Shown here piece by piece: positions 2,642-55,555 of a stretch of 64,000 nucleotides of DNA (position 1 is its first letter; every line of letters begins with the position of its first letter). The stretch is from positions 62,001 through 126,000 of the forward strand of contig NZ_WVHT01000005.1 of assembly GCF_009834875.1 (NCBI RefSeq), given 5' to 3'. The notes under the pieces were generated by a model, which made no database searches, was not told where the DNA came from, and saw only the letters and a list, made by a program, of their open reading frames with translations. This DNA comes from Hufsiella arboris. Lineage in GTDB: Bacteria > Bacteroidota > Bacteroidia > Sphingobacteriales > Sphingobacteriaceae. Made by a program: the position numbers and the translations under genes.

Positions 2642-3542
2642 GTATACTTTTTTAATACTCGGCATTTCTGTTTTTACGTCATGTAAGCAAAGCTCGAAAC
2701 CAACCCAGACAACAAGGGAGGGTTCGGCTACTTTTGTTGCTGATGAAACATTTAAGCCTATTATCGATGATGAATTGTATATTTTTCATAACACCTACCC
2801 AAATGCACAAATTAAAGTGCGTTATGAACCGGAGCGCACGGTGCTTAATGAATTTTTGAATAATGATACGACTCGTGTAGCTATCCTTGCCAGAGAATTG
2901 ACCCAAAAAGAGCGTAAAGTTTTTTTGGATAAAAAGATCGTGATCCGTACAAACAGGTTCGTAATTGACGGAATTGCACTCATCGCTAACACGGCGTCAC
3001 TTGATACTGGCGTAACTGTTCAGGAGATAATAAACCTAATGCAGTCAAAACCGTCAAACATTAAAAAATTAGTATTTGACAACGCAAATTCGAGCACTGT
3101 CAGATACTTAAAGGAATTAAGTAACGTTAAGAAATTGCCAACAACAGGAATATACGCTCTCCAGTCAAACCCAGAGGTTATAAAATTTGTTTCCGAAAAC
3201 ACAGGGGCACTTGGAGTTGTTGGAGTGAATTGGTTAATTGATCCTAAAAATGATCTGAAACCTGCAGTTGATAAAATAAAAATTCTTGGTGTTAAAAATC
3301 TCCAGGGCAAAAAAGGGGCTGACAAATTCTATGAGCCAGATCAAAATAATCTTGCTTTAGGTCTGTATCCTCTTACCAGGAATGTATATATTATTGATTG
3401 CCAGGGTGGAACCGGTTTAGGCACAGGTTTTGCATCGTTTATCGCAGGCGAAACCGGCCAGCGGATTGTGCTAAAATCAGGATTATTACCTGACAGCATT
3501 CCACCGCGCGAGCTTATTATTAGAAAAACATTGGAAAAATAG
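2625..3542 (+). CDS. PstS-like substrate-binding lipoprotein
   Basis: PstS-type (phosphate ABC transporter substrate-binding) lipoprotein of 305 residues. It has a lipoprotein signal peptide with the lipobox VFTSC (Cys20), then the PBP-like fold: the segment ATFVADETFKPIIDDELYIF near the start, and later IDGIALIANTASLDTGVTVQEI, which matches the PstS family. No pstCAB transporter genes lie beside it. In Bacteroidota such orphan PstS-like proteins often sit between tonB and a TPR gene. Substrate and role are therefore uncertain, and it may not bind phosphate. Its start overlaps the preceding ORF by 17 bp. Confidence 0.75.
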   Translation: MIKIYKYTFLILGISVFTSCKQSSKPTQTTREGSATFVADETFKPIIDDELYIFHNTYPNAQIKVRYEPERTVLNEFLNNDTTRVAILARELTQKERKVFLDKKIVIRTNRFVIDGIALIANTASLDTGVTVQEIINLMQSKPSNIKKLVFDNANSSTVRYLKELSNVKKLPTTGIYALQSNPEVIKFVSENTGALGVVGVNWLIDPKNDLKPAVDKIKILGVKNLQGKKGADKFYEPDQNNLALGLYPLTRNVYIIDCQGGTGLGTGFASFIAGETGQRIVLKSGLLPDSIPPRELIIRKTLEK

Positions 3543-3557
3543 ATTAATAATTGAACT

Positions 3558-5225
3558 ATGGAATTTAAGAAGAAAGCAATTTATGCGTCTATAGCATTTG
3601 TAATGGCTGGTACGTCAGTTTTTGCACAAGATGTTAATGAGGCAAAGAAAGCTATTGATGCTGAACAATATCAAAAAGCGGAAGGAATTTTAAAGAAGCT
3701 AGTAGCTTCACAGCCAACGGCTGCTGAAAATTATTTTTTCCTGGGTGACGTTTATTTAAAAAATGATTATCCAGATTCTGCCAAAATGACATTTAATAAG
3801 GGCGTTGCTGCAGCTGCATCAAGTCCTTTAAATTATATAGGACTTGGCGCTGTTGAATTAGAAAATAACAACGCGGCAGGTGCCAAGACAAATTTTGACA
3901 AAGCTGCTTCGCTTGCAGGAAAAAAAGATAACAAAACGTTCCTATATATTGGAAAAGCTTATGTCAGTGCGCCAAAGCCTGATTATAACACGGCCCTTAC
4001 TTTTTTAAATAAGGCGAAGGCCGTAAATGAAAAAGATGGCGAAGTATTTTTGGCTTTGGGTGATGCACATCGTGGTTTGAAAGATAATAGTGCTGCTTAC
4101 AGTGATTATCGTACAGCTTACGATCTTGATAAAAACCTTTTACGCTCAAAGATTGGTTTGGGAATTATTAACAAACAATCAAAGGCTTTCAAAGAATCAA
4201 CCGACGAATTCAATGGCGTTATTGCTCTTAATGCGAATTATGGTCCGGCATATCGTGAGCTTGCCGAAACTTATTACTTATGGGCTAACAACGAGCCGAA
4301 AGAATATGATGCACGCATCAAACAAGCGGTTGATTACTACAAAAAATATCTTGATTTAACAGATCGTTCAATTGATTCAAGAATGCGTTATGCCGACTTC
4401 TTATATCTTTCTAAGGATTACAAAGCATTAATTGAAGAAGCAAAAGCGATGTCAAGTCAGCAAAATGCTAATGCTCGTGTTTATCGCTATTTAGGTTATG
4501 CAGATTTCCAAAGCGGTGATTATGCAGGTGCTGTTCAGGCGTTAAATACTTTTATCAGCAAAGCAGATACTTCACGTATCATAGCGAGTGATTATCTTAA
4601 TCTTGGACAATCGCAAATAAAAGCGGGTGATAAAGCGGCTGGTATTGCCAGTCTTAAAAAGGCAATAGCTAAAGATTCAACTAACGCAGCTGCAATGTCT
4701 GAAGTTGGTAAAACACTTTATGATTCGAGAAACTATGCTGAAGCAGCAGATGCATACGAGATTGCAATTAAAGATCCAAAAACTCCTTTGCTTGACTTTT
4801 ATTATTTAGGAGTATCACACTATTTTGATTACGGGGCGAAGAAAACAGCAAACCAAAATCCTGATAAACAAATACTCGTTCAAGCAGATTCGGCGTTTAG
4901 CAAATTATTGCAGCGTTCACCAACAACTGAGCAAGCGTTGTTATACAGAGGTCGTATTCATCGTTTGATGGATGATGAGCAAGATAGCCAGGGATTAGCC
5001 GTTCCGTATTTTGAACAGTTTATACAATTGGTAACTGTTACCCGTCCTGAAAAGGCAGAAAAAAACAAAACCGGATTAGTTGAGTCATACCTTTATTTAG
5101 GTTCTGTTGCCGCACGTAAAGACAATAACGTTACGAAAGCTAAAGAATATTTTAACAAAGCTTTAGCGCTTGATCCGGCAAATGCTCCAGCCCAGCAAGC
5201 GATGAAGGCAATAAGCGGAAAATAA
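3558..5225 (+). CDS. Secreted tetratricopeptide-repeat protein
   Basis: A 555-residue TPR protein with a Sec signal peptide (about residues 1-24, ending SVFAQ), so probably periplasmic or attached to the outer membrane. Helical repeats of about 34 residues run through the whole length, for example AAENYFFLGDVYLKNDYPDSA near the start and ESYLYLGSVAARKDNNVTKAKEYFNKALALDPANA at the end. TPR arrays are protein-protein scaffolds and no enzymatic motif is seen. It is the last gene of the tonB-linked operon, followed by a strong hairpin at 5251. A scaffold function for the envelope transport machinery is inference from position. Confidence 0.8.
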   Translation: MEFKKKAIYASIAFVMAGTSVFAQDVNEAKKAIDAEQYQKAEGILKKLVASQPTAAENYFFLGDVYLKNDYPDSAKMTFNKGVAAAASSPLNYIGLGAVELENNNAAGAKTNFDKAASLAGKKDNKTFLYIGKAYVSAPKPDYNTALTFLNKAKAVNEKDGEVFLALGDAHRGLKDNSAAYSDYRTAYDLDKNLLRSKIGLGIINKQSKAFKESTDEFNGVIALNANYGPAYRELAETYYLWANNEPKEYDARIKQAVDYYKKYLDLTDRSIDSRMRYADFLYLSKDYKALIEEAKAMSSQQNANARVYRYLGYADFQSGDYAGAVQALNTFISKADTSRIIASDYLNLGQSQIKAGDKAAGIASLKKAIAKDSTNAAAMSEVGKTLYDSRNYAEAADAYEIAIKDPKTPLLDFYYLGVSHYFDYGAKKTANQNPDKQILVQADSAFSKLLQRSPTTEQALLYRGRIHRLMDDEQDSQGLAVPYFEQFIQLVTVTRPEKAEKNKTGLVESYLYLGSVAARKDNNVTKAKEYFNKALALDPANAPAQQAMKAISGK

Positions 5226-5250
5226 CGAAAGGTAATTTTCTATATTCTAT

Positions 5251-5282
5251 AAGAAGAGCCGGTAATTTTACCGGCTCTTCTT
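5251..5282. terminator. Strong symmetric hairpin between TPR gene and nuoA
   Basis: A perfect inverted repeat with 15-nt arms (AAGAAGAGCCGGTAA and its complement) and almost no spacer, starting 26 bp after the TPR stop. The right arm ends in TTCTT and an AT-rich stretch follows. It probably terminates the tonB operon. The nuo promoter element begins within 2 bp of its right edge. Confidence 0.75.
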
Positions 5283-5283
5283 A

Positions 5284-5291
5284 TATATTTG
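5284..5291 (+). promoter_or_regulatory. Bacteroidota -7 element upstream of nuoA
   Basis: TATATTTG matches the Bacteroidota housekeeping -7 consensus TAnnTTTG and lies 17 bp before the nuoA start. I see no clear TTG -33 element at the usual spacing, because that space is filled by the hairpin. Confidence 0.5.
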
Positions 5292-5308
5292 CATTTGAAA
5301 ATTAAAAG

Positions 5309-5680
5309 ATGGAAGCACAAAGTATATCAGTTGATTATTTGCCGATTTTTTTCCAGATGCTGGTAGCAATAGGATTTGTAGTTGCTACAATGCTTGCAAC
5401 CCACCTGATAGGCCCTAAGCGAAAAACAAAAGATAAGTTGTCTACTTTTGAAGCGGGTATCGAAGTTGTCGGTAATGCACGTCAGCCATTTTCAATTAAG
5501 TATTTCCTTGTCGCAATTTTGTTTGTCTTATTCGATATCGAAGTTATTTTCATGTATCCCTGGGCCGTTAATTTCAGAGATTTGGGACTACGCGGAATGG
5601 TCGAGATGTTTATATTCATGGCGACATTACTTTTAGGATTTATATACATTATAAAGAAGAAAGCATTAGAGTGGGATTGA
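5309..5680 (+). CDS. nuoA: NADH-quinone oxidoreductase subunit A
   Basis: Membrane subunit A of respiratory complex I, 123 residues, with three transmembrane helices. The family segment after helix 1 is visible (KTKDKLSTFEAGIEVVGNARQPFSIKYFLVAILFVLFDIEVIFMYPWA), including the acidic residues of helix 2. NuoA lies at the junction of the quinone tunnel and the first proton channel. It is the first gene of a full nuoA-N set that runs to 18333, all on the + strand. Confidence 0.97.
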   Translation: MEAQSISVDYLPIFFQMLVAIGFVVATMLATHLIGPKRKTKDKLSTFEAGIEVVGNARQPFSIKYFLVAILFVLFDIEVIFMYPWAVNFRDLGLRGMVEMFIFMATLLLGFIYIIKKKALEWD

Positions 5681-5734
5681 GTTTAGATTGATTCTAAATA
5701 TCGTAACCAACAAATGCTTAATCGACTTAATTAG

Positions 5735-5742
5735 TAGATTTG
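5735..5742 (+). promoter_or_regulatory. Possible internal promoter before nuoB
   Basis: TAGATTTG fits the TAnnTTTG -7 consensus, within an unusually wide 113-bp gap between nuoA and nuoB. There is no convincing TTG at -33. It is a possible secondary promoter for the peripheral-arm genes. Confidence 0.35.
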
Positions 5743-5793
5743 TGCTCATTTCAATGTGTTTGAAGTGAGTTTCTTGTTTTAGGAAAGGCATTA

Positions 5794-6336
5794 ATGAGTG
5801 AAGTTAATATTGTTGAAGCTCCTCCCGGAATAGAAGGATCGGGCTTCTTTGCTACTTCGTTAGATAAAGTAATAGGAATGGCTCGTGCCAACTCTCTTTG
5901 GCCGTTACCTTTCGCGACATCTTGCTGCGGAATTGAGTTTATGGCAACCATGGGATCCCATTATGATTTTGCGAGATTTGGTGCGGAGCGTTTGAGTTTT
6001 TCTCCTCGCCAAGCGGATTTGTTAATGGTTATGGGAACCATAGCAAAAAAAATGGAGCCTGTATTAAAGCAGATATATCTCCAGATGGCTGAACCTCGGT
6101 GGGTGCTTTCTGTAGGAGCCTGTGCTTGTAGCGGCGGTATTTTTGATACATACTCAGTACTTCAGGGAATTGACGAAATTATTCCTGTAGACGTTTATGT
6201 GCCTGGTTGTCCTCCACGACCTGAAGCAATTTTAGACGGCGTTTTGAAAATCCAGGAGTTGGTAAAGAATGAATCCGGAAGACGCAGAAATAGTCCTGAA
6301 TACAAACAGTTGTTAGCTAAATACGGAATCCAATAA
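5794..6336 (+). CDS. nuoB: NADH-quinone oxidoreductase subunit B
   Basis: Peripheral-arm subunit (PSST homologue), 180 residues, which holds the terminal [4Fe-4S] cluster N2 next to the quinone site. The cluster ligands are visible: the adjacent pair Cys44-Cys45 in [10 protein letters not shown], the cysteine in [10 protein letters not shown] and the one in [10 protein letters not shown]. Length is normal. The stop overlaps the nuoC start by one base (TAATG), so translation is probably coupled. Confidence 0.97.
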
Positions 6337-6839
6337 TGAGTAGAATCAGTAATCAGGTTTTATTGCAGAAACTTAGCGATCGATTCGGTGATCAGATAAC
6401 AATTCCTTCAGAGCCATTTGGCCTTTTAACCTTCGAGACGAATAAAGAGATAATTCACGATGTATTGACTTTTCTTCGTGATGATTCTGAATTGAAGTTC
6501 AATTATCTAACAGACATAACCGGAGTTCATTTTCCGGAAAAAGACCTTTCTATCGGTGTTGTTTACCATGTCCACAGTTTGACAAACAACTTAAGAGTTA
6601 GAATTAAAGTGTTTCTTGAAGCTCAAAATCCGCAGATACCGACTGCCACAACGTTGTGGAAGGGTGCCAACTGGATGGAGCGCGAAACCTACGATTTTTT
6701 CGGAATTACTTTTACTGGACATCCTGATTTGCGTCGCATACTAAATGTCGACGATATGACGGTTTTTCCTATGCGTAAAGAGTATCCGCTGGAAGATCCA
6801 AACAGAGTTGATAAAAAAGATTATTTCTTCGGAAGATAA
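6336..6839 (+). CDS. nuoC: NADH-quinone oxidoreductase subunit C
   Basis: The 30-kDa subunit of complex I, 167 residues, encoded separately rather than fused to NuoD as in E. coli. The family signature ERETYDFFGITFTGHPDLRRIL is near the C-terminus, followed by RKEYPLEDPNR. It helps hold NuoD and NuoB in the connecting module. It starts one base inside the nuoB stop, and nuoD begins 1 bp after its own stop. Confidence 0.97.
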   Translation: MSRISNQVLLQKLSDRFGDQITIPSEPFGLLTFETNKEIIHDVLTFLRDDSELKFNYLTDITGVHFPEKDLSIGVVYHVHSLTNNLRVRIKVFLEAQNPQIPTATTLWKGANWMERETYDFFGITFTGHPDLRRILNVDDMTVFPMRKEYPLEDPNRVDKKDYFFGR

Positions 6840-6840
6840 A

Positions 6841-8052
6841 ATGAGTAATCATCCAATATATATAGATAACGATCCTCAAAAAGCTACAACAACGCTTAAC
6901 CTTGGGCCAACACACCCGGCAACTCACGGCGTGTTCCAGAATATATTAGAAATGGATGGGGAGCGTATTGTTAGCGGAGTTTCAACGATCGGATATATAC
7001 ACCGGGCTTTTGAAAAAATTGCCGAGCATCGCCCTTTTTACCAAATTACCCCATTAACTGACCGGATGAACTATTGTTCCTCACCGATTAATAATATGGG
7101 TTGGCACATGACGGTCGAAAAACTGCTTGGTATCAAAATGCCAAAGCGGGTTGACTATCTGCGTATAATTGTAATGGAGTTGTCAAGGATTTCCGATCAT
7201 ATTATTTGCAACACAATTATTGGCCAGGACACCGGAGCTACTACGCCGTTTTTGTACCTGTTCCAATATCGTGAGCACATTTACGAAATATATGAAGAGA
7301 TTTGCGGAGCTCGTTTAACTACAAATATTGGTCGCATTGGCGGTTTTGAACGTGATTTTAATGATATCGCCTTCGCTAAGATCCGTAAGTTCTTAAAGGA
7401 ATTTCCTGTTGCATTGGCTGAATTTGAAAAGTTGTTGACACGTAACAGGATTTTCATCGACCGTACCGCAAACGTAGCCTGTGTTACTCCGGAAGATGCG
7501 TTGAGTTATAGTTGGAGTGGCGTTTTGCTGCGTGCCACCGGTGTTGATTACGATGTCCGTGTAAATGAACCTTATTCGTCTTATGAAGATTTCGACTTCG
7601 AAATCCCGGTAGGAACCAAAGGAGATATTTACGATCGTTTTAATGTGCGTAACGGTGAAATGTGGCAAAGCATGCGCATTATTGAGCAAGCCCTTTCCAA
7701 ACTAGAGAATGAGCCAAAAGGTGTTTTCCATGCTGACGTTCCCGAATTTTATCTGCCGCCGAAAGAGCAGGTTTATAACAACATGGAAGCTTTGATCTAT
7801 CACTTTAAGATCGTGATGGGAGAAATTGACACACCTAAAACAGAAGTTTATCACTGTGTGGAAGGTGGAAACGGCGAACTCGGGTTTTACCTGATCAACG
7901 ACGGAGGTCGAACGCCATATCGCTTGCATTTCCGTCGCCCAAGTTTTATCAATTATCAGATGTATGCGCCGATGAGCCGCGGGATGCTGCTTTCGGACGC
8001 AATTATCAATATGAGTAGTTTAAACATTATAGCAGGAGAATTAGATGCTTAG
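6841..8052 (+). CDS. nuoD: NADH-quinone oxidoreductase subunit D
   Basis: The 49-kDa subunit, 403 residues from the ATG at 6841. That start gives the typical N-terminus and avoids a 32-bp overlap with nuoC that an upstream ATG would require. NuoD shapes the quinone-binding pocket together with NuoB. The sequence shows the conserved NLGPTHPATHGVFQ near the start, then RIGGFERDF, and the C-terminal GGRTPYRLHFRRPSF followed by IIAGELDA. It overlaps the nuoE start by 8 bp. Confidence 0.97.
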   Translation: MSNHPIYIDNDPQKATTTLNLGPTHPATHGVFQNILEMDGERIVSGVSTIGYIHRAFEKIAEHRPFYQITPLTDRMNYCSSPINNMGWHMTVEKLLGIKMPKRVDYLRIIVMELSRISDHIICNTIIGQDTGATTPFLYLFQYREHIYEIYEEICGARLTTNIGRIGGFERDFNDIAFAKIRKFLKEFPVALAEFEKLLTRNRIFIDRTANVACVTPEDALSYSWSGVLLRATGVDYDVRVNEPYSSYEDFDFEIPVGTKGDIYDRFNVRNGEMWQSMRIIEQALSKLENEPKGVFHADVPEFYLPPKEQVYNNMEALIYHFKIVMGEIDTPKTEVYHCVEGGNGELGFYLINDGGRTPYRLHFRRPSFINYQMYAPMSRGMLLSDAIINMSSLNIIAGELDA

Positions 8053-8587
8053 TGTAACAAATACAGAAGAAGTTATATTCTCACCTGAACTTGTCACAAA
8101 GTTCAAAGAAATCGTAAGCCGTTATCCGGAAGGAAAGCAAAAGTCGGCTTTACTACCTGTTTTGCATTTAGTTCAGGCAGAATTCGGCTGGGTGAGCGCT
8201 CCTGCAATGGATAAAGTTGCCCAATATTTGGACATCAGGCCAATAGAAGTGTACGAAGTTGCGACTTTTTACACAATGTTTTTCCTGAAACCGCAAGGTA
8301 AATATGTACTGGAAGTTTGCCGGACCGGGCCTTGCTGCCTTGTTGGCGCTGAAAAAATTATGAAACATATCGAGCAGAAACTTGGTGTGAAAGAAGGGCA
8401 GGTTACTAACGATAATTTGTTTAGCTGGCGTGGTGTTGAATGCCTTGCTGCCTGCGGTTTCGGACCGGTTTTACAAATTGGCCCTGAGTATACTTTTTAT
8501 GAAAACCTTACCGAAAGCAAGGTTGACGAACTAATTGATAATTTAAAACTTACAACGGCAGCAAAGCCGGTTGATCAAATCAGCTAA
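8045..8587 (+). CDS. nuoE: NADH-quinone oxidoreductase subunit E
   Basis: The 24-kDa subunit of the NADH-dehydrogenase module, 180 residues, carrying a thioredoxin-like [2Fe-2S] cluster. The four ligands lie in CRTGPCC and CLAACGFGP. The helical N-terminal domain has the usual KQSALLPVLHLVQAEFGWV-like start. It overlaps nuoD by 8 bp and ends 1 bp before the preferred nuoF start. Confidence 0.97.
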   Translation: MLSVTNTEEVIFSPELVTKFKEIVSRYPEGKQKSALLPVLHLVQAEFGWVSAPAMDKVAQYLDIRPIEVYEVATFYTMFFLKPQGKYVLEVCRTGPCCLVGAEKIMKHIEQKLGVKEGQVTNDNLFSWRGVECLAACGFGPVLQIGPEYTFYENLTESKVDELIDNLKLTTAAKPVDQIS

Positions 8588-8588
8588 C

Positions 8589-9950
8589 ATGGCCCGCAAG
8601 TTATTATTAGAACATATCAACGTACCGGGAATAAACACATTGGAGGTTTATCGGCAGCAAGGTGGTTACCGTGCTGTTGAAAAGGCTCTGAAAACACTTA
8701 CCCCCGACGAAGTTGTAGAAGAAGTTAAAAAATCGGGATTACGTGGCCGAGGTGGTGCAGGATTTCCTACCGGGATGAAGTGGAGCTTTTTGGCTAAACC
8801 GGAAGGTGTTGAACGCTACCTGGTTTGTAATGCCGATGAGTCGGAACCTGGTACGTTTAAAGACCGTTACCTGATGACTTACATACCTCATGCTTTGATC
8901 GAGGGAATGATCGTTGCGAGCTTCGCGCTGGGTGCTAAAACGTCATATATCTATGTTCGGGGTGAGATGATGCCGCAGATCCGCATCCTGGAAAAGGCCA
9001 TCGCGGAAGCGAAGAATGCCGGATTTCTTGGTAAAAATATTTTAGGAACGGGATACGATCTTGAATTGTATGTCCAGCCAGGCGGTGGGGCATATATCTG
9101 CGGTGAAGAAACTGCTCTTATTGAATCGCTGGAAGGTAAACGCGGTAATCCACGTATTAAACCTCCCTTTCCTGCAATTGCCGGACTGTACAATTGCCCG
9201 ACAGTAGTGAATAACGTTGAATCGATTGCAGCTATAGTTCCAATTATAAACGACGGTGGTGACGAATATGCGAAAGTCGGAATTGGCCGCAGCACCGGAA
9301 CAAAACTAATTTCTGCTGGCGGAAATTTGAATAAACCAGGTGTTTACGAAATTGAACTCGGATTGCCGGTCGAAGAATTCATCTATTCGGATGAATATTG
9401 TGGCGGTATCGCAAACGGCAAACGCCTGAAAGCTGTCGTTGCCGGCGGTTCTTCAGTTCCGATTCTGCCGGCAAACCTGATATTGAAAACTCTGAATGGT
9501 GAGAGCCGCCTCATGTCGTATGAATCATTAGCCGACGGTGGTTTCGCTACAGGAACCATGATGGGGTCCGGTGGATTTATCGCGTTCGATGAAGATCAGT
9601 GCATTGTTCGCAATACCTGGAACTTTACGCGTTTTTATCATCACGAAAGCTGCGGACAATGTTCTCCGTGCCGTGAAGGTACCGGCTGGATGGAGAAAGT
9701 ATTACACCGACTGGAGTACGGCCATGGCAAGCTTAGTGACATGGATCTTTTAGTTGACGTGTCGAAGAAAATTGAAGGAAATACAATATGCCCGCTTGGA
9801 GACGCGGCTGCATGGCCTGTTGCAAGCGCCATTCGTCATTTCCGTGACGAATTTGAGTGGCATGTGACAAATCCTCAGGAAGCTGTTCAAAGAAATTATG
9901 GATTGGCTCATTATGCTGATCCGCTGCCGCCGGTAGGTGAGCCAGCATAA
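8589..9950 (+). CDS. nuoF: NADH-quinone oxidoreductase subunit F
   Basis: The 51-kDa NADH- and FMN-binding subunit, about 453 residues from the ATG at 8589 (MARKLLLEHINVPG). An in-frame ATG six codons upstream lies inside nuoE and is less likely. The glycine-rich GLRGRGGAGFPTGMKW binds NADH/FMN. The [4Fe-4S] ligands are in ESCGQCSPCREGTGW plus the later cysteine in NTICPLGDAAAWP. This is the electron entry point of the complex. Confidence 0.97.
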   Translation: MARKLLLEHINVPGINTLEVYRQQGGYRAVEKALKTLTPDEVVEEVKKSGLRGRGGAGFPTGMKWSFLAKPEGVERYLVCNADESEPGTFKDRYLMTYIPHALIEGMIVASFALGAKTSYIYVRGEMMPQIRILEKAIAEAKNAGFLGKNILGTGYDLELYVQPGGGAYICGEETALIESLEGKRGNPRIKPPFPAIAGLYNCPTVVNNVESIAAIVPIINDGGDEYAKVGIGRSTGTKLISAGGNLNKPGVYEIELGLPVEEFIYSDEYCGGIANGKRLKAVVAGGSSVPILPANLILKTLNGESRLMSYESLADGGFATGTMMGSGGFIAFDEDQCIVRNTWNFTRFYHHESCGQCSPCREGTGWMEKVLHRLEYGHGKLSDMDLLVDVSKKIEGNTICPLGDAAAWPVASAIRHFRDEFEWHVTNPQEAVQRNYGLAHYADPLPPVGEPA

Positions 9951-9971
9951 CAGAATAAATACACTTGATAA

Positions 9972-10976
9972 ATGAGTGATTTAATTAAAGTAACAATAGA
10001 CGGAATAACCGTTGACGTAGCACCTGGCACAAGCATCCTGAATGCTGCACGGCAGATCGGTGGGGAAATTGTTCCGCCAGCTATGTGCTATTATTCTAAG
10101 CTCGAAGGAAGCGGTGGAAAGTGTCGCACCTGTCTTGTAAAAGTTAGCAAAGGTTCAGAAAAGGACCCGCGGCCTATGCCGAAGCTTGTTGCTTCCTGCC
10201 GTACCGGAGTTATGGACGGTATGGAGGTGCAAAATATTACGTCGCCGGAAGTTGTCGAAGCCAGGAAAGGCGTGGTTGAGATGTTGTTGATCAACCATCC
10301 GCTTGATTGCCCGGTTTGTGACCAGGCCGGAGAATGCCATCTTCAGGATTTGGGGTATGAACATGGTCTTTCGTCAACCCGATATGAGTTTGAACGCAGG
10401 ACATTCGACAGAATAGATATCGGAGATAAGATACAGTTACATATGACTCGTTGTATTTTATGCTATCGTTGTGTGTTTACTGCTGACCAGATAACAAATC
10501 AGCGTGTACACGGTGTTCTGGGGCGTGGTGACGCTGCTGAAATATCAACTTATATCGAAAAAGCTATTGATAATGATTTCTCGGGAAATGTTATAGATGT
10601 TTGTCCTGTTGGCGCTTTAACCGACAAAACGTTTCGTTTTAAGAACCGTGTTTGGTTTACAAAACCAGTTGATGCTCATCGCGATTGTCCGACATGCAGT
10701 GGTAAAGTGACACTTTGGTATAAAGGTGAAGACGTAATTCGAGTGACTGCCCGGAAAGACCAGTTCGGAGAAGTTGAGGAATTCATTTGCAATACTTGTC
10801 GCTTTGATCAAAAGAAAACGTCAGATTGGGTGATTGAAGGACCAAGAGCGATTTCTAATCAATCGGTTATATCTTCTAATCATTACGATACACTGAAGCC
10901 ATTGCCGGTAATAAAAACCAACCTTCAACTTCAGCAGTCAAATAAGGATCAATTTGAACGCGCTACTAAATTATAG
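9972..10976 (+). CDS. nuoG: NADH-quinone oxidoreductase subunit G, short form
   Basis: Iron-sulfur subunit of the NADH module, 334 residues. The N-terminal [2Fe-2S] domain (CYYSKLEGSGGKCRTC), the His-Cys [4Fe-4S] motif (CPVCDQAGECHLQDLGYEHG) and the following cysteine-rich segment (CILCYRC ... VCPVGAL) are all present. The long molybdopterin-oxidoreductase-like C-terminal domain found in the ~900-residue E. coli protein is absent. The frame closes cleanly and nuoH begins on the next base, so this is a natural short form, as known in other Bacteroidota, not a frameshift. Confidence 0.93.
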   Translation: MSDLIKVTIDGITVDVAPGTSILNAARQIGGEIVPPAMCYYSKLEGSGGKCRTCLVKVSKGSEKDPRPMPKLVASCRTGVMDGMEVQNITSPEVVEARKGVVEMLLINHPLDCPVCDQAGECHLQDLGYEHGLSSTRYEFERRTFDRIDIGDKIQLHMTRCILCYRCVFTADQITNQRVHGVLGRGDAAEISTYIEKAIDNDFSGNVIDVCPVGALTDKTFRFKNRVWFTKPVDAHRDCPTCSGKVTLWYKGEDVIRVTARKDQFGEVEEFICNTCRFDQKKTSDWVIEGPRAISNQSVISSNHYDTLKPLPVIKTNLQLQQSNKDQFERATKL

Positions 10977-49574: not shown

Positions 49575-49734
49575 TTAATTCTAAAAATTACGAAAGCCAA
49601 AAATAGGAAAAGGATATAGAATGCGAAATGCAGGAAGTTAAGTTTCTGGCAGCTTTTAAATCTCCAGGATTAGATCATGAAAAAGGAATAATCGTAAGAT
49701 AAAAAATAATAATCTATAGAATTAGTAGATTTAA
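49575..49734. other. Gene-free stretch between YfhO-family gene and riboswitch
   Basis: About 160 bp of AT-rich DNA with no convincing ORF. It must hold the promoters for the two divergent units; only the element near 49737 for the right-hand unit is recognisable. Confidence 0.5.
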
Positions 49735-49736
49735 TT

Positions 49737-49744
49737 TATCTTTG
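49737..49744 (+). promoter_or_regulatory. -7 element ahead of the SAM riboswitch
   Basis: A TAnnTTTG-like element (ending TTTG, directly before CCGCAT) lies about 22 bp ahead of the riboswitch P1 helix, at the right place to start the leader transcript. The exact edge is approximate. Confidence 0.45.
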
Positions 49745-49765
49745 CCGCATAATCGTTCTTATTCA

Positions 49766-49868
49766 ATTATCAAGAAAGACTGAGGGAAAGGCCCGATGAC
49801 GTCTTAGCAACCTGCGCCTCCAGCGTAACGGTGCTAATTCCTATCTGTTAAATGACAGAGAAGATAAT
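49766..49868 (+). promoter_or_regulatory. SAM-I (S-box) riboswitch aptamer
   Basis: This leader matches the S-box consensus. P1 is ATTATC (49766-49771) paired with GATAAT (49863-49868). The core contains GAGGGAAAGGCCCGATGA, AGCAACC, a P3 with CGC/GCG arms, GGTGCTAATTCC and a P4 (CTGT/ACAG). SAM binding stabilises P1 and normally switches genes for methionine or sulfur metabolism off. It lies 82 bp before the TlpA-like gene and heads the unit with the poly-Cys ORF and the SusC/SusD pair. Confidence 0.93.
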
Positions 49869-49958
49869 GCAGAAGATTTGCATTGAACGGAGCTCCGGGA
49901 TATGATACCTCTTTCTTTCACTAATTGATTTACGGTTTAATTAAAGTCTAATGCAAAT
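49866..49958 (+). promoter_or_regulatory. Putative translational expression platform of the SAM riboswitch
   Basis: ATTTGCATT (49876-49884) is perfectly complementary to AATGCAAAT (49950-49958), which covers the start codon of the TlpA-like gene. The same segment can instead fold with AATGCAGA (49866-49873) into an 8-bp hairpin (one G-U pair), but that hairpin uses the last three P1 bases. With SAM bound, P1 would free the segment to mask the start codon. Without SAM, the local hairpin would hide it and leave the start open. Pairing is seen in the sequence; the switching is inference. Confidence 0.6.
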
Positions 49959-50541
49959 GATAAATAAAATCAGGGGCAGCTTTCGTCTGCTGGGTATTGC
50001 GTCATTATTATTAATGTCCTTTCTAACGAAGGCGCAAGGCTTAAATACATCTAATTCAGCGACTGATGATCGTGGCTACTTAGTTAAGACGGGTGATGTC
50101 GCTCCGGCTGATTTCACTCTTCGGTTGGCAGATGGCACTGAGACATCTTTAAGTAAACTACGCGGAAAGGTGGTGGTGTTGCAATTTACAGCCAGCTGGT
50201 GCAGCGTTTGCCGCGAAGAAATGCCGCATCTTGAAAAAGAAGTTTGGCAAGCCTATAAAAATAAAGGACTTGTTTTGATTGGCGTCGACAGGGACGAACC
50301 GCTTGAAAAAGTAATCAACTTTCAAAAGAGTATGAACATCAGTTATCCCTTAGCACTTGATCCCGGCGCAGAGATATTTGGACGCTTCGCCGATAAAAAA
50401 AGTGGTGTCACACGGAATGTTGTAATCGATAGGGACGGCAAGATAGCTTATCTCACCCGCTTGTATGACCGGCAGGAATTTATGTCAATGCTTAAAAAAA
50501 TTGAGTCGCTGGTAGCTACAACGGGCGCCGCTTCAAGGTAG
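49951..50541 (+). CDS. TlpA/ResA-like periplasmic thiol-disulfide oxidoreductase
   Basis: Thioredoxin-fold protein of 196 residues with a Sec signal peptide (about 1-30, ending TKAQ), so periplasmic. The redox site is WCSVC (Cys84 and Cys87) in VVLQFTASWCSVCREEMPHLEKEV, followed by the AhpC/TSA-like VIDRDGKIAYLTRLYDRQEF. It would reduce or shuffle disulfides. As the first gene behind a SAM riboswitch and ahead of a SusC/SusD pair, it may handle an imported sulfur compound or keep receptor thiols in order (inference). A second ATG at 49957 is an alternative start. Confidence 0.9.
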   Translation: MQMINKIRGSFRLLGIASLLLMSFLTKAQGLNTSNSATDDRGYLVKTGDVAPADFTLRLADGTETSLSKLRGKVVVLQFTASWCSVCREEMPHLEKEVWQAYKNKGLVLIGVDRDEPLEKVINFQKSMNISYPLALDPGAEIFGRFADKKSGVTRNVVIDRDGKIAYLTRLYDRQEFMSMLKKIESLVATTGAASR

Positions 50542-50580: not shown

Positions 50581-50694
50581 ATGAAAACATCATCTACCAT
50601 CCTTCGTAAATCTTCTGTTCTTATCACTTCGCCTGTTAAGGTATTTATGGCACTATGTGCCACAAATCACTCATGTTGTTGTTGCTGCTGTTGA
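50581..50694 (+). CDS. Poly-cysteine leader peptide (37 codons, ends in six Cys)
   Basis: A small ORF, 39 bp after the TlpA-like stop and 117 bp before the SusC start. The peptide begins MKTSSTILRKSSVLITSPVK and ends ALCATNHSCCCCCC, so six consecutive Cys codons (TGT, TGT, TGT, TGC, TGC, TGT) sit directly before the TGA. A 6-bp hairpin (TGGCAC/GTGCCA, 50648-50662) lies just upstream of the Cys run. Poly-Cys short ORFs that sense cysteine supply by ribosome stalling are known in mycobacteria; here the idea is inference from layout. The peptide is basic and has no domain. Confidence 0.65.
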   Translation: MKTSSTILRKSSVLITSPVKVFMALCATNHSCCCCCC

Positions 50695-50811
50695 TATTTT
50701 AATCGTGGACCGTCGTCCGAACACTAATTCCTAGTCTTTAATCTTCACATGCAACTGGTAAAATCCCGGGATGTTACAATGTATGTACATTAAAATCTAT
50801 TTAAAACTATC
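50695..50811 (+). promoter_or_regulatory. Structured spacer between poly-Cys ORF and SusC gene
   Basis: This gap holds several small inverted repeats: GGAC-CGTC-GTCC (about 50707-50718), ATCCCGGGAT (palindrome, about 50764-50773) and AATGTA-TG-TACATT (about 50779-50792). GCAAC at about 50751 can pair with GTTGC inside the Cys codons. No T-run hairpin is seen, so control here, if any, would act on translation or on Rho-dependent termination. Confidence 0.4.
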
Positions 50812-53800
50812 ATGAAAAGAATTTACAAATGGCTCCCTGCTATTTTACTATCATTCATTTTTCTACAGAAGGTGGCAGCACAATCTGTCATAATAAGCGG
50901 TACTATCACTGCGCAATCAGATAAGCTTCCCCTGCCAGGGGTAAGTATAACAGTGAAAGGATCTTCGGCTGTCACCCAAACCAATACTGAGGGTAAATTT
51001 ACTGTAAGGGCAAATGTTAACGATGTGCTCAGAATAACTTACATCGGTTTTACTGCTCAGGAAATTACAGTTACTCAAAATAATTCCAACCTGCAGATAG
51101 TGCTTCAGGAAACCGCCAATTCTCTAAGCGAAGTTGTTGTGACGGCATTAAATATTTCCAAGGATAAAAAATCGTTAGGATATGCTGTTCAGGGGCTGAA
51201 GGCTAAAGATATTTCGCAGGCAAAGGAAACTAACCTGGTCAATGCACTTTCTGGCAAGATTGCTGGTGTACAGGTTACCAATAGTCAGGGTGACATGGGT
51301 TCTTCCCGAATAGTTATCCGTGGTGAAACTTCGGTATCGGGTAATAACCAACCACTTTTTGTTGTCGACGGTGTGATTGTTGATAATTCGCAGTTCCAGG
51401 GTACCAATGGATCAAGGGATTTTGCTAATGCCATTTCTGATCTGAACTCCGAAGACATCGAGTCCATCAGTGTGCTTAAGGGACCAAACGCGGCGGCATT
51501 ATATGGTTATCGTGCTGCTGCCGGCGTAATTCTGATTAAAACAAAAACCGGTAAAGGAACAAAGGGACTTGGTATAACCGTTAACTCGAATACTACTTTC
51601 TCTAATCTGAATGTGTTTCCGGATTATCAGAATGCATATGGCCAGGGTTCTAACGGAAAATTCAGCTATGTAGACGGTAAAGGCGGTGGTGTAAACGATG
51701 GTGTAGATGAGAGTTGGGGGCCGGCGCTGGATGGCTCACTGATTCCTCAGTTTTATTCGAACGGACAGGCTGTGCCGTTCGTAGCACATCCGGATAACGT
51801 ACGCAGTTTTTTCAGAACAGGCGTAACCTTGAACAATGGAGTCGCACTTTCGGGCAGCGGCGAAAAATATGATTTCAGGTTATCGTACAACAATCTACAC
51901 CAAACGGGAGTTGTGCCGAACTCGTCGCAAGGCAGAAACTCCTTTTTACTAAACGGCAGTTACAAGCTAAACAAAAATCTAACATTGACCGCTATTGCCA
52001 ATTACATCAAAGATGATGCTGACAATTTGCCGGGCGCTTATGGCAGAAGGGCGACAAGCACCATGTTACAGTTCACCTGGTTCGGGCGCCAGGTCGATGT
52101 AAACCAGCTTTATCCTTATCGTGATGCCAACGGCAATACGTTTAACTGGAACAACAGCTATTACAGCAATCCATACTTTATCGCTTATGAAAATACTGTC
52201 GGACAACACAAAAACCGCTTGATCGGAAGTGTTGAACTTAACTACAAAATAGCCGAAGGTTTATCTGCTAATTTCCGTACCGGTACAGACTTTTATAACG
52301 ATCGCCGGAAAATAAGGATTGCTTATGGCACCAATGGAACGCCGTTTGGCTCATATGAAGAAGACGCATATTATGTGAATGAAACCAATACAGAAGCGCG
52401 GTTGCAATACACTAGAAAGTTGAACGATGACTTTTCAATTGATGTTTTCGCCGGAGGCAATCTGAGTTCCATTATAAACGAACAGAATGACCAGGTAGCG
52501 CCTAAACTGGCGGTGGCAGGGTTATATACGCTCAGCAATTCCCGCGATCCGCTGGTGTCATCGAATTACTATGGGAGGCTAAAAACGTACAGTATTTTCG
52601 GCTCGGCACAGGTTGGGTTCAGGAATTATGCATATATAAATTTTACCGGCCGTAATGACTGGTCTTCTACATTACCGGTAGCCAACTTATCTTACTTTTA
52701 CCCATCTGTAAATGGAAGTTTGATACTTTCGGAGGCATTTAATCTGAAGGGCGATGTATTAAGCTATTTTAAATTGAGAGGCGGCTGGTCGAAGGTCGGG
52801 AAAGCGACAACGCCTTACCAGTTAATTAATACTTACACATTCGGTACGCTTTTCGGCTCCAATCCACAGCAAAGCGCAGCCAGCGTCAACCTGAACGCAA
52901 ACCTGAAACCGGAAACGACAACTTCGGGAGAGGCGGGCTTTGAACTAGGCTTTTTAAAGGATCGCGTACGGCTTGATGTGAGTGCTTACAATACCAATAG
53001 TGTTAACCAGATATTAAGTGTAGATGTTAGTCCTTCGACAGGCTATAGCCAGCAACTGATTAACGGCGGCCGCATAAACAACAGGGGGCTTGAAATACAA
53101 CTGGGTGGCACCCCGATTAAGAAAAGCGATTTTTTATGGGATGTCACGATCAATTATTCTCTGAACCGAAGCAAGGTTGAATCACTTGATGAAGAAGGTC
53201 GCCTGCAAAGTTATATTCTTGGCACCAACCGGACCGTGCAGGTTTTGGCAGCCGTAGGTAAACCTTATGGCACGCTCTTCGGCAATGCTTATCTTCGCGA
53301 TGCCTCAGGTCAGATTATTATCGGGGCTAACGGTACGCCGGTCACTAATCCCACCAAGCAATATTTAGGAAAATTTACGCCGGATTGGCTTGGAAGCATT
53401 AATAACAGCTTCAGCTATAAAGGGATAAACCTTAGTTTTTTAGTTGATGCCCGGGTAGGAGGATCGATTTATTCGAATACTAATCGTACAGGGACTTACA
53501 CCGGTGTGCTGGCGTCAACATTGCCCGGCCGGGGTGCAGCTAACGGTGGTTTGAGTTATTATTATCCGGAGAATAATACCGCTACTGCCGCAGTGCAGAT
53601 CAGCAACGGAGGACAAGCGCCCAAAGGTGAAGTTGTATACGATGACGGTATGATTTTCAAAGGAGTAAAATCGGACGGGACACCCAATACTACTATTCTC
53701 CCGGCTCAATCTTATTACAAAGGATTCACAAACTTTGATGAGTCTTTTGTTTACGATGCATCCTATGTCAAGTTACGCGAAGTGAAGATAGGTTACGTTT

Positions 53801-54000
53801 TCCCGTCCAAACTGGTAAAAGGGCTGGGTCTGCAATCTGCCACGGTGTCGTTAGTTGGCCGTAATCTTTGGATAATTCATAAAAATGTTCCAAATATCGA
53901 TCCTGAAACTGCTTTTAATACGGGAAACGGGCAGGGTCTGGAAGATCTGACCCTTCCGACAGTTCGCAACGTTGGTTTTAACATTAACCTTAATTTCTAA
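50812..54000 (+). CDS. SusC/RagA-family TonB-dependent receptor of the SAM-riboswitch locus
   Basis: Outer-membrane importer of 1062 residues. It has a signal peptide (about 1-24, ending KVAAQ), then the carboxypeptidase-regulatory-like domain (SVIISGTITAQSDKLPLPGVSITVKGSS) and a TonB-box region (LSEVVVTALNISKDKKSLGYAVQ). The plug shows LVNALSGKIAGVQVTNSQGDMGSSRIVIRGE, LFVVDGVIVDN and GPNAAALYGYRAAAGVILIKTK; the barrel ends in FNINLNF. It belongs to a different subgroup from the receptor at 22877. With the SAM riboswitch and the poly-Cys ORF upstream, a methionine-, cysteine- or other sulfur-containing ligand is the best guess. Confidence 0.95.
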   Translation: MKRIYKWLPAILLSFIFLQKVAAQSVIISGTITAQSDKLPLPGVSITVKGSSAVTQTNTEGKFTVRANVNDVLRITYIGFTAQEITVTQNNSNLQIVLQETANSLSEVVVTALNISKDKKSLGYAVQGLKAKDISQAKETNLVNALSGKIAGVQVTNSQGDMGSSRIVIRGETSVSGNNQPLFVVDGVIVDNSQFQGTNGSRDFANAISDLNSEDIESISVLKGPNAAALYGYRAAAGVILIKTKTGKGTKGLGITVNSNTTFSNLNVFPDYQNAYGQGSNGKFSYVDGKGGGVNDGVDESWGPALDGSLIPQFYSNGQAVPFVAHPDNVRSFFRTGVTLNNGVALSGSGEKYDFRLSYNNLHQTGVVPNSSQGRNSFLLNGSYKLNKNLTLTAIANYIKDDADNLPGAYGRRATSTMLQFTWFGRQVDVNQLYPYRDANGNTFNWNNSYYSNPYFIAYENTVGQHKNRLIGSVELNYKIAEGLSANFRTGTDFYNDRRKIRIAYGTNGTPFGSYEEDAYYVNETNTEARLQYTRKLNDDFSIDVFAGGNLSSIINEQNDQVAPKLAVAGLYTLSNSRDPLVSSNYYGRLKTYSIFGSAQVGFRNYAYINFTGRNDWSSTLPVANLSYFYPSVNGSLILSEAFNLKGDVLSYFKLRGGWSKVGKATTPYQLINTYTFGTLFGSNPQQSAASVNLNANLKPETTTSGEAGFELGFLKDRVRLDVSAYNTNSVNQILSVDVSPSTGYSQQLINGGRINNRGLEIQLGGTPIKKSDFLWDVTINYSLNRSKVESLDEEGRLQSYILGTNRTVQVLAAVGKPYGTLFGNAYLRDASGQIIIGANGTPVTNPTKQYLGKFTPDWLGSINNSFSYKGINLSFLVDARVGGSIYSNTNRTGTYTGVLASTLPGRGAANGGLSYYYPENNTATAAVQISNGGQAPKGEVVYDDGMIFKGVKSDGTPNTTILPAQSYYKGFTNFDESFVYDASYVKLREVKIGYVFPSKLVKGLGLQSATVSLVGRNLWIIHKNVPNIDPETAFNTGNGQGLEDLTLPTVRNVGFNINLNF

Positions 54001-54004
54001 ACTT

Positions 54005-55444
54005 ATGAAACTCAATTATATAGCTTTGATGATATCTGGGATACTTTTGTTTTCCGTGACATCATGCAAGAAAGACCTTCAGGATACCAACCAAAATCCA
54101 AATGCTTCGCAAAATGCGCAGCCGGATTACTTATTGACAGCGGCGACAAAATCTACGGCTGACACCTACTGGGGTACCGCCAATAATATGGATGCAAGCT
54201 TGCTTTTTGTTCAGCATTGGGCAAAGATACAGTACACAGATCCCGACAGATATATCTTTTCAAACAGCGCCTTCCAGGAATTATGGACAACGGGATATTC
54301 AAAAAGTATTGTTAATCTCAACCAGATCATTAAAATTGGCGATGAACAATCGAATCCTAATTACAAGGGTGTTGCCTTAGTGCTGCGTTCATGGGTGTTT
54401 CAGTTATTGACCGATGCTTATGGCAACATTCCGTATAAACAGGCAGCCAGTATCGATGAATATCTAACTCCGGCTTACGATACTCAGAAGGACGTTTATT
54501 TTTCATTGCTGGACGATCTGAAAGCGGCCCAGGCTGCTCTAGACCCGGCGGGAAAAGCTATTTCAGGTGATGTTCTTTATGGAAATAATATCGCTTTATG
54601 GAAGAAATTTGCCAATTCTTTGCGTATCCGGATTGCCTTGCGAATTGCTGATCGTGAGCCGGAAAGAGCGAAACAGGTTTTTGCAGAGATACAAGCTGAA
54701 GGGGGCCTGCTTATCAGCTCAAACAGTGAAACTGCGCAGCTTGTTTATCTTGATTCGCCAAATCAGAATCCAATCAGCAATTTATTTGATACACGTGACG
54801 ATTACCGCATCAGTAAAACCATTGTTGATAAATTATTCGCGTTAAACGATCCGCGTCTGCCTGTATATGCAAGCAAAACAAAGGATCCTACAGATAAAAC
54901 CTATGTAGGTATACCGAATGGCTTGCTGGTCGGCGATGCAAGTAATCTTGGATTCACCAGAACATCGAAACCCGGCACGTACTTTTTAGCGCCGCATGCC
55001 CCTGCAGTAATCATCAGTTATGCAGAAGTGTTGTTTGACCGTGCTGAGGCGGCGGCCCGCGGATTTACGGTCGAAAATGCCGCTGATCTATACCTGCAGG
55101 CTATACGAGCGTCTTTAACACAGTACGGAACGGCCGACAGTGAGATAAACACTTACCTTGCTTCGCCTGCTATTCAATATGGTGCTTCCAATTTTAGAAA
55201 ATCGATCGGGGAACAAAAATGGATTGCCCTTTTTGGCCAGGGTCTCGAAGCTTTCGCCGAGTGGCGCCGCTTAGATTATCCGCAATTGCAGCCTGCCGTT
55301 GCCGGAACGCTTAACGGTAAAATTCCACAGCGCTTTATTTATCCGGGAACGGAGCAGTCACTTAATGCCGACAGTTACAAAGCCGCCGTGACTAACCAGG
55401 GTGCCGACCTGTTAACTACCAAACTTTGGTTTGATGTGAATTAA
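54005..55444 (+). CDS. SusD/RagB-like nutrient-binding lipoprotein (SusD-like_2)
   Basis: Outer-membrane lipoprotein of 479 residues that caps the preceding SusC. The start at 54005 gives the lipobox SVTSC (Cys21); the ATG at 53972 lies within susC. The pattern NPNASQNAQPDYLLTAATKSTADTYWG and FQELWTTGYSKSIVNLNQIIKIG, then VLRSWVFQLLTDAYGNIPYKQA, fits the SusD-like_2 group, which often binds peptides or small nutrients rather than glycans. It ends 11 bp before the hairpin at 55456. Confidence 0.93.
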   Translation: MKLNYIALMISGILLFSVTSCKKDLQDTNQNPNASQNAQPDYLLTAATKSTADTYWGTANNMDASLLFVQHWAKIQYTDPDRYIFSNSAFQELWTTGYSKSIVNLNQIIKIGDEQSNPNYKGVALVLRSWVFQLLTDAYGNIPYKQAASIDEYLTPAYDTQKDVYFSLLDDLKAAQAALDPAGKAISGDVLYGNNIALWKKFANSLRIRIALRIADREPERAKQVFAEIQAEGGLLISSNSETAQLVYLDSPNQNPISNLFDTRDDYRISKTIVDKLFALNDPRLPVYASKTKDPTDKTYVGIPNGLLVGDASNLGFTRTSKPGTYFLAPHAPAVIISYAEVLFDRAEAAARGFTVENAADLYLQAIRASLTQYGTADSEINTYLASPAIQYGASNFRKSIGEQKWIALFGQGLEAFAEWRRLDYPQLQPAVAGTLNGKIPQRFIYPGTEQSLNADSYKAAVTNQGADLLTTKLWFDVN

Positions 55445-55455
55445 CGGTTAGGATC

Positions 55456-55485
55456 GCCGGCATCATAGATTAAAAGGATGCCGGC
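55456..55485 (+). terminator. GC-rich hairpin after susD
   Basis: GCCGGCATC and GATGCCGGC form a perfect 9-bp stem around a 12-nt A-rich loop, 11 bp after the susD stop. No T-run follows. Its right arm overlaps the 5' end of the tRNA-like sequence, so the two structures compete. Confidence 0.6.
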
Positions 55486-55555
55486 ACCGATGGCGGAGTG
55501 GTCAGGCGGAGGTATGCAAAACCTTTTACGACGGTTCAAATCCGTCCTCGAGCCT
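55483..55555 (+). tRNA. tRNA-Cys(GCA)-like sequence with damaged acceptor stem
   Basis: The anticodon arm GAGGT-ATGCAAA-ACCTT (anticodon GCA, cysteine), a 4-nt variable loop (TTAC) and the T arm GACGG-TTCAAAT-CCGTC are intact, and U73 with a GCC end is kept. The D arm has only two good pairs. The acceptor strands (GGCACCGA and CTCGAGCC) pair at three outer positions and then mismatch, with one extra base on each side compared with an expected GGCTCGA/TCGAGCC. No CCA is encoded. It is either a decayed tRNA-Cys copy, a tRNA-like regulatory element, or an unusual tRNA. A working tRNA is doubtful. Confidence 0.6.

Follow-up and report, generated by a model that had tools for sequence, protein, structure and literature searches.

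Our analysis indicates that a 37-codon open reading frame (ORF) of Hufsiella arboris, lying between a tlpA-like gene and susCD, probably encodes a leader peptide through which the ribosome exerts cysteine-responsive attenuation, a reading to which we give a probability of about 0.83. Translation of the ORF, stalling, the direction of control and the substrate of the importer are all inferred, and no expression or ribosome data stand behind them. The interpretation had been advanced in the original prediction and is supported by a Cys run that recurs in relatives, by leaders of the same type at metY and by three terminator/antiterminator pairs; neither translation nor a cysteine effect has been shown.

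Within the window (the whole stretch of DNA that was analysed, 64,000 nt), the ORF occupies 50581..50694 on the forward strand, as do all the features of the unit given here. It starts with an ATG at 50581, encodes the peptide MKTSSTILRKSSVLITSPVKVFMALCATNHSCCCCCC and stops at a TGA (50692-50694), directly after six Cys codons (50674..50691; TGT TGT TGT TGC TGC TGT) that we regard as putative control codons, the terminal Cys recurring in relatives. A 6-bp hairpin, TGGCAC-TAT-GTGCCA (50648..50662), sits directly 5’ of the Cys run and is also present in the minimum-energy fold; it is possible that it acts as a pause hairpin, although that function is inferred. The coordinates and translation of the ORF, its mixture of TGT and TGC codons and the hairpin had all been called beforehand, and all were found as described. 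The peptide matches neither a Pfam nor an NCBIfam model, and since no protein-family model recognises the ORF, such leaders are likely to have been missed by annotation.

The ORF had further been placed between a TlpA-like gene and susC in a SAM-riboswitch unit, which RF00162 and domain matches bear out. The SAM-I aptamer lies at 49764..49870 (RF00162; cmscan 86.3 bits against a gathering score of 44.4), and about 20 nt 5’ of it, at 49737..49744, we read from the sequence, by inference, a promoter box TATCTTTG of the TAnnTTTG type, which is the consensus of Bacteroidota promoters. The first gene of the unit (49951..50541) encodes a TlpA/ResA-like thiol-disulfide oxidoreductase of 196 aa (Redoxin 1.9e-23, AhpC-TSA 7.6e-23) that scores under the cut-off of the ResA model; 39 nt separate it from the leader ORF. 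A 117-nt spacer (50695..50811), where a switch structure would be expected, leads from the leader stop to a SusC-type TonB-dependent receptor of 1062 aa (50812..54000; Plug, TonB_dep_Rec and CarbopepD_reg_2 domains, TIGR04056 617.5 bits), followed by a SusD-type lipoprotein of 479 aa (54005..55444; SusD-like_2, 1.4e-111). Just 5’ of the promoter-like box, at 49712-49731, there is an AT-rich palindrome-like sequence CTATAGAATTAGTAGAT, variants of which also precede the leaders of loci L012, L049, L051 and L081; this is possibly an operator shared by several such units.

In the mechanism that we propose, transcription would start ahead of the SAM-I riboswitch, and RNA escaping the riboswitch would allow the TlpA-like protein to be made and the leader ORF to be reached. 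With sufficient Cys-tRNA the ribosome would pass the six Cys codons and depart, after which a fold of the RNA may stop transcription or block initiation at susC; with Cys-tRNA scarce, a ribosome stalled on the Cys codons would prevent that fold and susCD would be expressed. The result would be a two-input gate, in which low SAM is required for the entire unit and low cysteine for the importer, while the TlpA-like gene, placed between both sensors, would answer to SAM alone. Such a gate suggests that the importer is for a sulfur compound, and from the leader together with the SAM riboswitch we infer that this is probably the role of the SusCD pair in the window.

Conservation of the Cys run was examined by one rule: an ATG ORF within 350 nt upstream, 8-70 codons long and with its end no closer than 20 nt to the gene, qualified if it had at least three Cys among its last 12 residues. 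A search with the SusC of the window in 151 family genomes gave 23 with E <= 1e-200, own genome included, and upstream of many of these family susC genes we found short ORFs ending in RCCC, HCCC, QCCCCFRA, CCCCCCSLR, CCCCCMP and the like (no such Cys ORF at L136 and L148). Fourteen of the 23 loci qualified, compared with 0/23 on the reverse strand and 0.0 in dinucleotide shuffles. For a second susC sample we took the best 80 of 150 loci, less two whose gene start fell outside the locus; here 49/78 qualified, the opposite strand giving 3/78 and dinucleotide shuffles 1.6. The two samples have some genomes in common and many loci are close relatives, so that they are not independent.

By group, the rule was met at 30/33 Mucilaginibacter loci, 7/11 loci of Chitinophagaceae type (presumably, as we assigned the family from genus names) and 12/34 of Pedobacter type. 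Fewer than three Cys were present in 29 of the 78, and nothing Cys-like was seen upstream in L288, L302, L307, L319, L322, L323 and L326. Many Pedobacter-type loci retain a short ORF ending in FRMRMPC, FRMCMSC or similar with one or two Cys, and the run in these relatives is, judging from the sequences, weakened. The expectation that Cys-run ORFs would be found upstream of susC in relatives thus held in both samples (49/78 and 14/23) and was met only weakly in the Pedobacter type. In the 49 qualifying leaders, the position most often occupied by Cys is -3 (40 leaders), followed by -1 and -2 (31 each) and -4 (27); upstream of -10 no residue is counted in more than 13 of the 49. Lack of conservation of the Cys run had been named in the original prediction as an outcome that would refute it; the run does recur in relatives, and most of the peptide does not.

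A SAM riboswitch was recognised upstream of susC at 64/78 loci by a consensus regular expression, and by covariance models at 10 of the 13 susC loci tested. Its distance to susC is a few hundred nt at some loci and about 1.0-1.5 kb at others, where a TlpA motif often intervenes. A single operon in genome G054 (L271, 2619-11377) holds a SAM riboswitch, a Cys leader, SusC, SusD and TlpA, and after TlpA a second Cys leader MIKDLHFLIIKTETPREEIHPHLDCCCCC precedes another TonB receptor. We also observed a recurring sequence like GGMATTGCTWTGCCC between leader and gene, which in many cases is very roughly 55-80 nt away from the start of susC (L128, L133, L134, L137-L143).

The same leader type is found at metY, which encodes O-acetylhomoserine sulfhydrylase (the copy of the own genome matches TIGR01326 with 679 bits). 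As metY serves sulfur assimilation, the gene behind the leader here does belong to the metabolism of the amino acid sensed, in the own genome and in relatives. metY was found in 119/151 family genomes; 70 of the 119 upstream regions were examined and one (L191) had no recognised start, leaving 69. The rule of at least three Cys in the last 12 residues was met by 51/69, 41 of them with at least four Cys, versus 3 on the reverse strand and 1.0 in shuffles; the other 18 fell below the threshold. A class-wide draw of 247 genomes contained metY in 53, from which 30 loci were taken, 22 of them from 13 other families (one of these, L371, without a recognisable start). By inspection, 11 of these 13 families have Cys-run leader ORFs before metY, with the ORF farther upstream in L360, L362 and L375; inspection found none at metY in families f41 and f68, nor at L359 and L361 (f15) or L368 (f11). 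SAM riboswitches were present at 15 of the 20 metY loci tested. In one genus (L199, L210, L213, L218) the metY leaders end in RMR and a stop (CGAATGCG.TAG) with few Cys, suggesting that the sensed codons have shifted or that a conserved RNA motif lies over the stop codon.

These comparisons bear on the possibility that the ORF encodes a small Cys-rich peptide that functions as a protein, by metal binding or thiol reaction, and whose translation senses the ligand. The upstream ORF CruR of Bordetella is copper-responsive, many of the leaders have 30-45 codons, their Cys pairs could bind metal and a TonB receptor adjoins the leader. Against this, the peptides differ widely outside the last residues, leaders of like kind precede metY, mostly with SAM riboswitches, and the run stands at the stop or, where it is internal (L366, L376 and L378), is followed by codons that can form an antiterminator. 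We therefore consider a functional peptide improbable, and prefer the reading of the ORF as a cysteine-responsive leader.

An attenuator requires an RNA switch after the Cys codons, and in the window we could not identify one. No intrinsic terminator was found in the spacer; leader and spacer together fold no better than shuffles (z -0.84, with 39/200 shuffles at least as stable); and pairing of the Cys tract with the downstream RNA is at chance level (z +0.65). Across leaders, pairing of the Cys tract with the whole spacer gave mean z values of -0.50 (23 susC) and -0.32 (62 metY leaders), with p <= 0.05 in 3/23 and 6/62, respectively, which is not a clear signal. When pairing was confined to the next 40 nt, in the 84 of 101 leaders that were retained as non-redundant and as having at least three Cys, mean z was -0.56 +/- 0.18 for 39 susC and -0.35 +/- 0.16 for 45 metY leaders, compared with 0.06 +/- 0.13 and 0.36 +/- 0.16 for a control stretch in the same test, a small signal above control and weak evidence.

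Structures of the expected kind were found in relatives. Three metY leaders of distant origin have a strong U-tailed hairpin whose 5’ half has an alternative upstream pairing: L366 (MMMCCCMPINRPEQLYHIA; -20.2 kcal/mol for the hairpin and -9.4 for the alternative), L378 (MMCMCCCMAPPCLDSTV; -18.3 and -16.4) and L376 (MMCMCCYMLLFARGNLCFK; -18.8 and -14.0). Read by eye, the alternative partner comes directly after the Cys codons in all three and is weak in L366. In these modelled folds the three leaders look like textbook attenuators, with a predicted terminator and a competing antiterminator. The same analysis of the metY loci L368, L372, L373 and L377 found no strong terminator, and at L369 the strongest terminator lies upstream of the leader, a weaker U-tailed hairpin being visible by eye after it. 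In the Pedobacter-type susC leaders L141, L142, L143 and L145, a hairpin CCUGUUA...UAACAGG with 4-6 U behind it has the last Cys codon and the stop in its 5’ arm; this is a terminator only. Over the second susC sample, taking the best ORF per locus regardless of Cys number, U-tailed hairpins were present in 31/77 leaders, compared with 15.2 expected from shuffles; a family-wide terminator scan of the metY leaders found no consistent U-tailed hairpin. RNAalifold, run by genus, was strong only for the metY leaders of one genus, with three covarying hairpins, moderate for the RCCC clade of Mucilaginibacter, and gave nothing clear for the group containing the window. Because such structures were found in relatives and none in the window, we regard the control principle as well supported and the switch of the window as unidentified, with Rho-dependent termination and masking of the susC start both open.

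The covarying three-hairpin fold also invites the idea that the switch is an RNA element that needs no translation, its Cys codons being a by-product of helix-forming UGY repeats, and at L128, L133 and L134 there is indeed a local hairpin whose 5’ arm consists of the Cys codons. This is opposed by the Cys codons being in frame with an ATG and by their in-frame interruption by other codons (MCMCCCC, CCMCM); the mixture of 117 TGT and 94 TGC in the 49 qualifying susC leaders argues against a pure repeat as well, without being decisive. We hold such an element to be less probable even than a functional peptide, and retain ribosome-mediated attenuation as the preferred reading.

Cys-codon words are by themselves weak evidence. 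Four Cys codons and a stop occur at seven places in the 4.8-Mb own genome, compared with one for the reversed pattern, and ATG-started short ORFs hold three of the seven. Three Cys codons and a stop occur at 50 places, of which 30 were inspected and only one (L386) was leader-like. Five Cys codons and a stop occur at 79 places in 58/151 family genomes (control 6), many of them without an ATG ORF. metY follows 104-124 nt downstream of 11 of the 79 (L010, L013, L014, L028, L030, L031, L033, L034, L035, L041 and L045), and in the own genome a four-Cys ORF (L007) ends 106 nt before metY; it was for this reason that the searches above were begun from genes and not from the Cys word. That the ORF is merely a chance frame over a TGY repeat, or the antisense of a repeat-rich coding stretch, agrees with the abundance of five-Cys words lacking an ATG ORF and with the 29 of 30 inspected three-Cys words that are not leader-like, but is scarcely credible given the recurrence in position before susC and metY and the near-absence on the reverse strand and in shuffles. 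It is this conservation upstream of both genes that makes the ORF of the window significant; the ORF is genuine and goes beyond what chance would give. Another of the three four-Cys words in ATG short ORFs belongs to a second six-Cys ORF of the own genome (L006/L038), which we do not accept as a leader: a gene on the opposite strand overlaps it with its end, and no same-strand ORF of at least 110 aa lies downstream within the stretch read.

Among other genes in the examined loci, 6/353 carry such an ORF, and all but one of these six background cases adjoin TonB receptors, peptidase or redox genes, or cobA. Three of the six loci (L047, L049 and L081) had been chosen for a Cys word. L081 is a SusC gene whose neighbours, judged on N-termini alone, look like cysN and a gene for a cystathionine-type enzyme. 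At L047 (4018-5493, an S10 serine carboxypeptidase gene) and L049 (complement of 4314-4943, a gene for an AhpC/TSA-type protein), the Cys-run ORF lies 56-57 nt upstream, and both genes are possible further members of the regulon. The remaining cases are cobA (L039), whose leader MVSNKTHGKFNYMIMCNTCCSRYRL is a weak candidate only, and L224 and L236, two of the 29 other SusC loci of the own genome. At L224, the SusD position behind susC is taken by a gene without a domain test, after which comes a sulfatase; the operon at L236 includes an M14 peptidase, an ATP-grasp protein and an SfnG/SsuD-like monooxygenase that scores under the cut-offs of those models. In L251 (about 4048-10635), an own-genome susC has the leader MDTLAQINRATYSKCCRCWCCCRM; a gene that we take to be dnaA precedes it, and a sulfatase and a gene in the SusD position come after it. 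In all, the own genome has at least four leader-bearing loci: the susC of the window, metY, a susC with a sulfatase and a susC operon with an SfnG/SsuD-like monooxygenase.

Downstream of susD in the window, at 55484..55554 on the forward strand, lies a degenerate tRNA-Cys-like sequence with a GCA anticodon and a shortened D-arm region (RF00005, 30.9 bits; negative by ARAGORN). The 80 loci of the second susC sample were scanned with ARAGORN, and 13 of them also with cmscan. At the matching place (about 8680-8750), an intact tRNA-Cys is present in five Mucilaginibacter loci, found by ARAGORN in L274, L277, L282 and L289 and by cmscan, with the anticodon read by eye, in L283. L294 and L316 carry a pair of tRNA-Cys genes, on the other strand, and L272 has one upstream, behind a gene reading as cysteine desulfurase. 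tRNA-Cys genes or remnants at Cys-leader SusCD operons are thus commoner than other tRNAs, at 8 versus 3 of 80 (L287 Asp, L303 Gly and L330 Ser); the scan found no tRNA at the remaining loci. In the family susC sample, a tRNA-Ser lies near the locus of G094. The own genome has two ordinary tRNA-Cys genes elsewhere, and the L236 operon contains a tRNA-Cys-like sequence between its M14 peptidase and ATP-grasp genes (43.4 bits; ARAGORN negative). In L250, a tRNA-Cys gene or remnant at a Cys-leader SusCD operon occupies the complement of 3074-3143.

On balance, we lean slightly towards a wider proposal, in which a ribosome-run cysteine network spans the class Bacteroidia: Cys leaders, usually in series with a SAM riboswitch, would control metY as well as several SusCD/TonB importers, a single RNA thereby reading both sulfur amino-acid signals, with the associated tRNA-Cys genes forming part of the response. 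If true, this would mean a cysteine sensor in a phylum in which attenuation has been little studied, provide a case of a riboswitch and a leader peptide operating in series, and allow the importers of sulfur compounds to be predicted, by their leaders, among the dozens of SusCD systems that a genome encodes.

With the attenuators of mycobacteria, whose polycysteine short ORFs are reportedly leaderless (to go by the title of the report on them), the present leaders share a short Cys-codon ORF upstream of cysteine or sulfur genes and several loci per genome. Unlike those leaderless ORFs, the leaders here are located within operons or downstream of a SAM riboswitch; a SusCD importer is among their targets, and intrinsic terminators occur in some relatives. 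The ORF of the window is not at the 5’ end of a transcript, as the mycobacterial case would have it, but about 840 nt after the predicted promoter box and behind tlpA; at L012, L049, L051 and L081, a TAnnTTTG-like box can be seen by eye within about 30 nt of the ATG. The mycobacterial polycysteine leaderless short ORF attenuators are those of Canestrari et al. 2020 (Mol Microbiol 114:93), for which we rely on the accessible parts of PMC9094748 and PMC13236596 and on a reference in PMC7790235; control there is by translation attenuation (PMC13236596, in part). Seliverstov et al. 2005 (PMC1262725) predicted Cys leader peptides in Actinobacteria upstream of cys operons or cbs, and these resemble ours in their Cys codon runs near the stop; in the part of that article available, no terminators were found for them and neither a SAM riboswitch nor a TonB/SusCD target appears, and the phylum is a different one. 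In Bacteroidota, excerpts of two articles describe leader-peptide attenuation upstream of amino-acid operons in Flavobacterium (PMC9723704) and leader-peptide-like short ORFs in Bacteroides (PMC7366714); as here, leaders are long and attenuation is suggested, and cysteine is not named in those excerpts. A cysteine attenuator in Bacteroidota was not found in the open-licence literature, and an earlier notice is not excluded, subscription papers and supplements having been mostly outside its scope. The SAM-I riboswitch (RF00162) is itself present upstream, and the arrangement here differs by the second, Cys-codon sensor placed after it. Classical attenuators of the trp/his type combine control codons, a terminator and a competing antiterminator; the window is unlike them in having a riboswitch in series and no detected terminator, while the metY leaders L366, L376 and L378 are like them in having all three elements.
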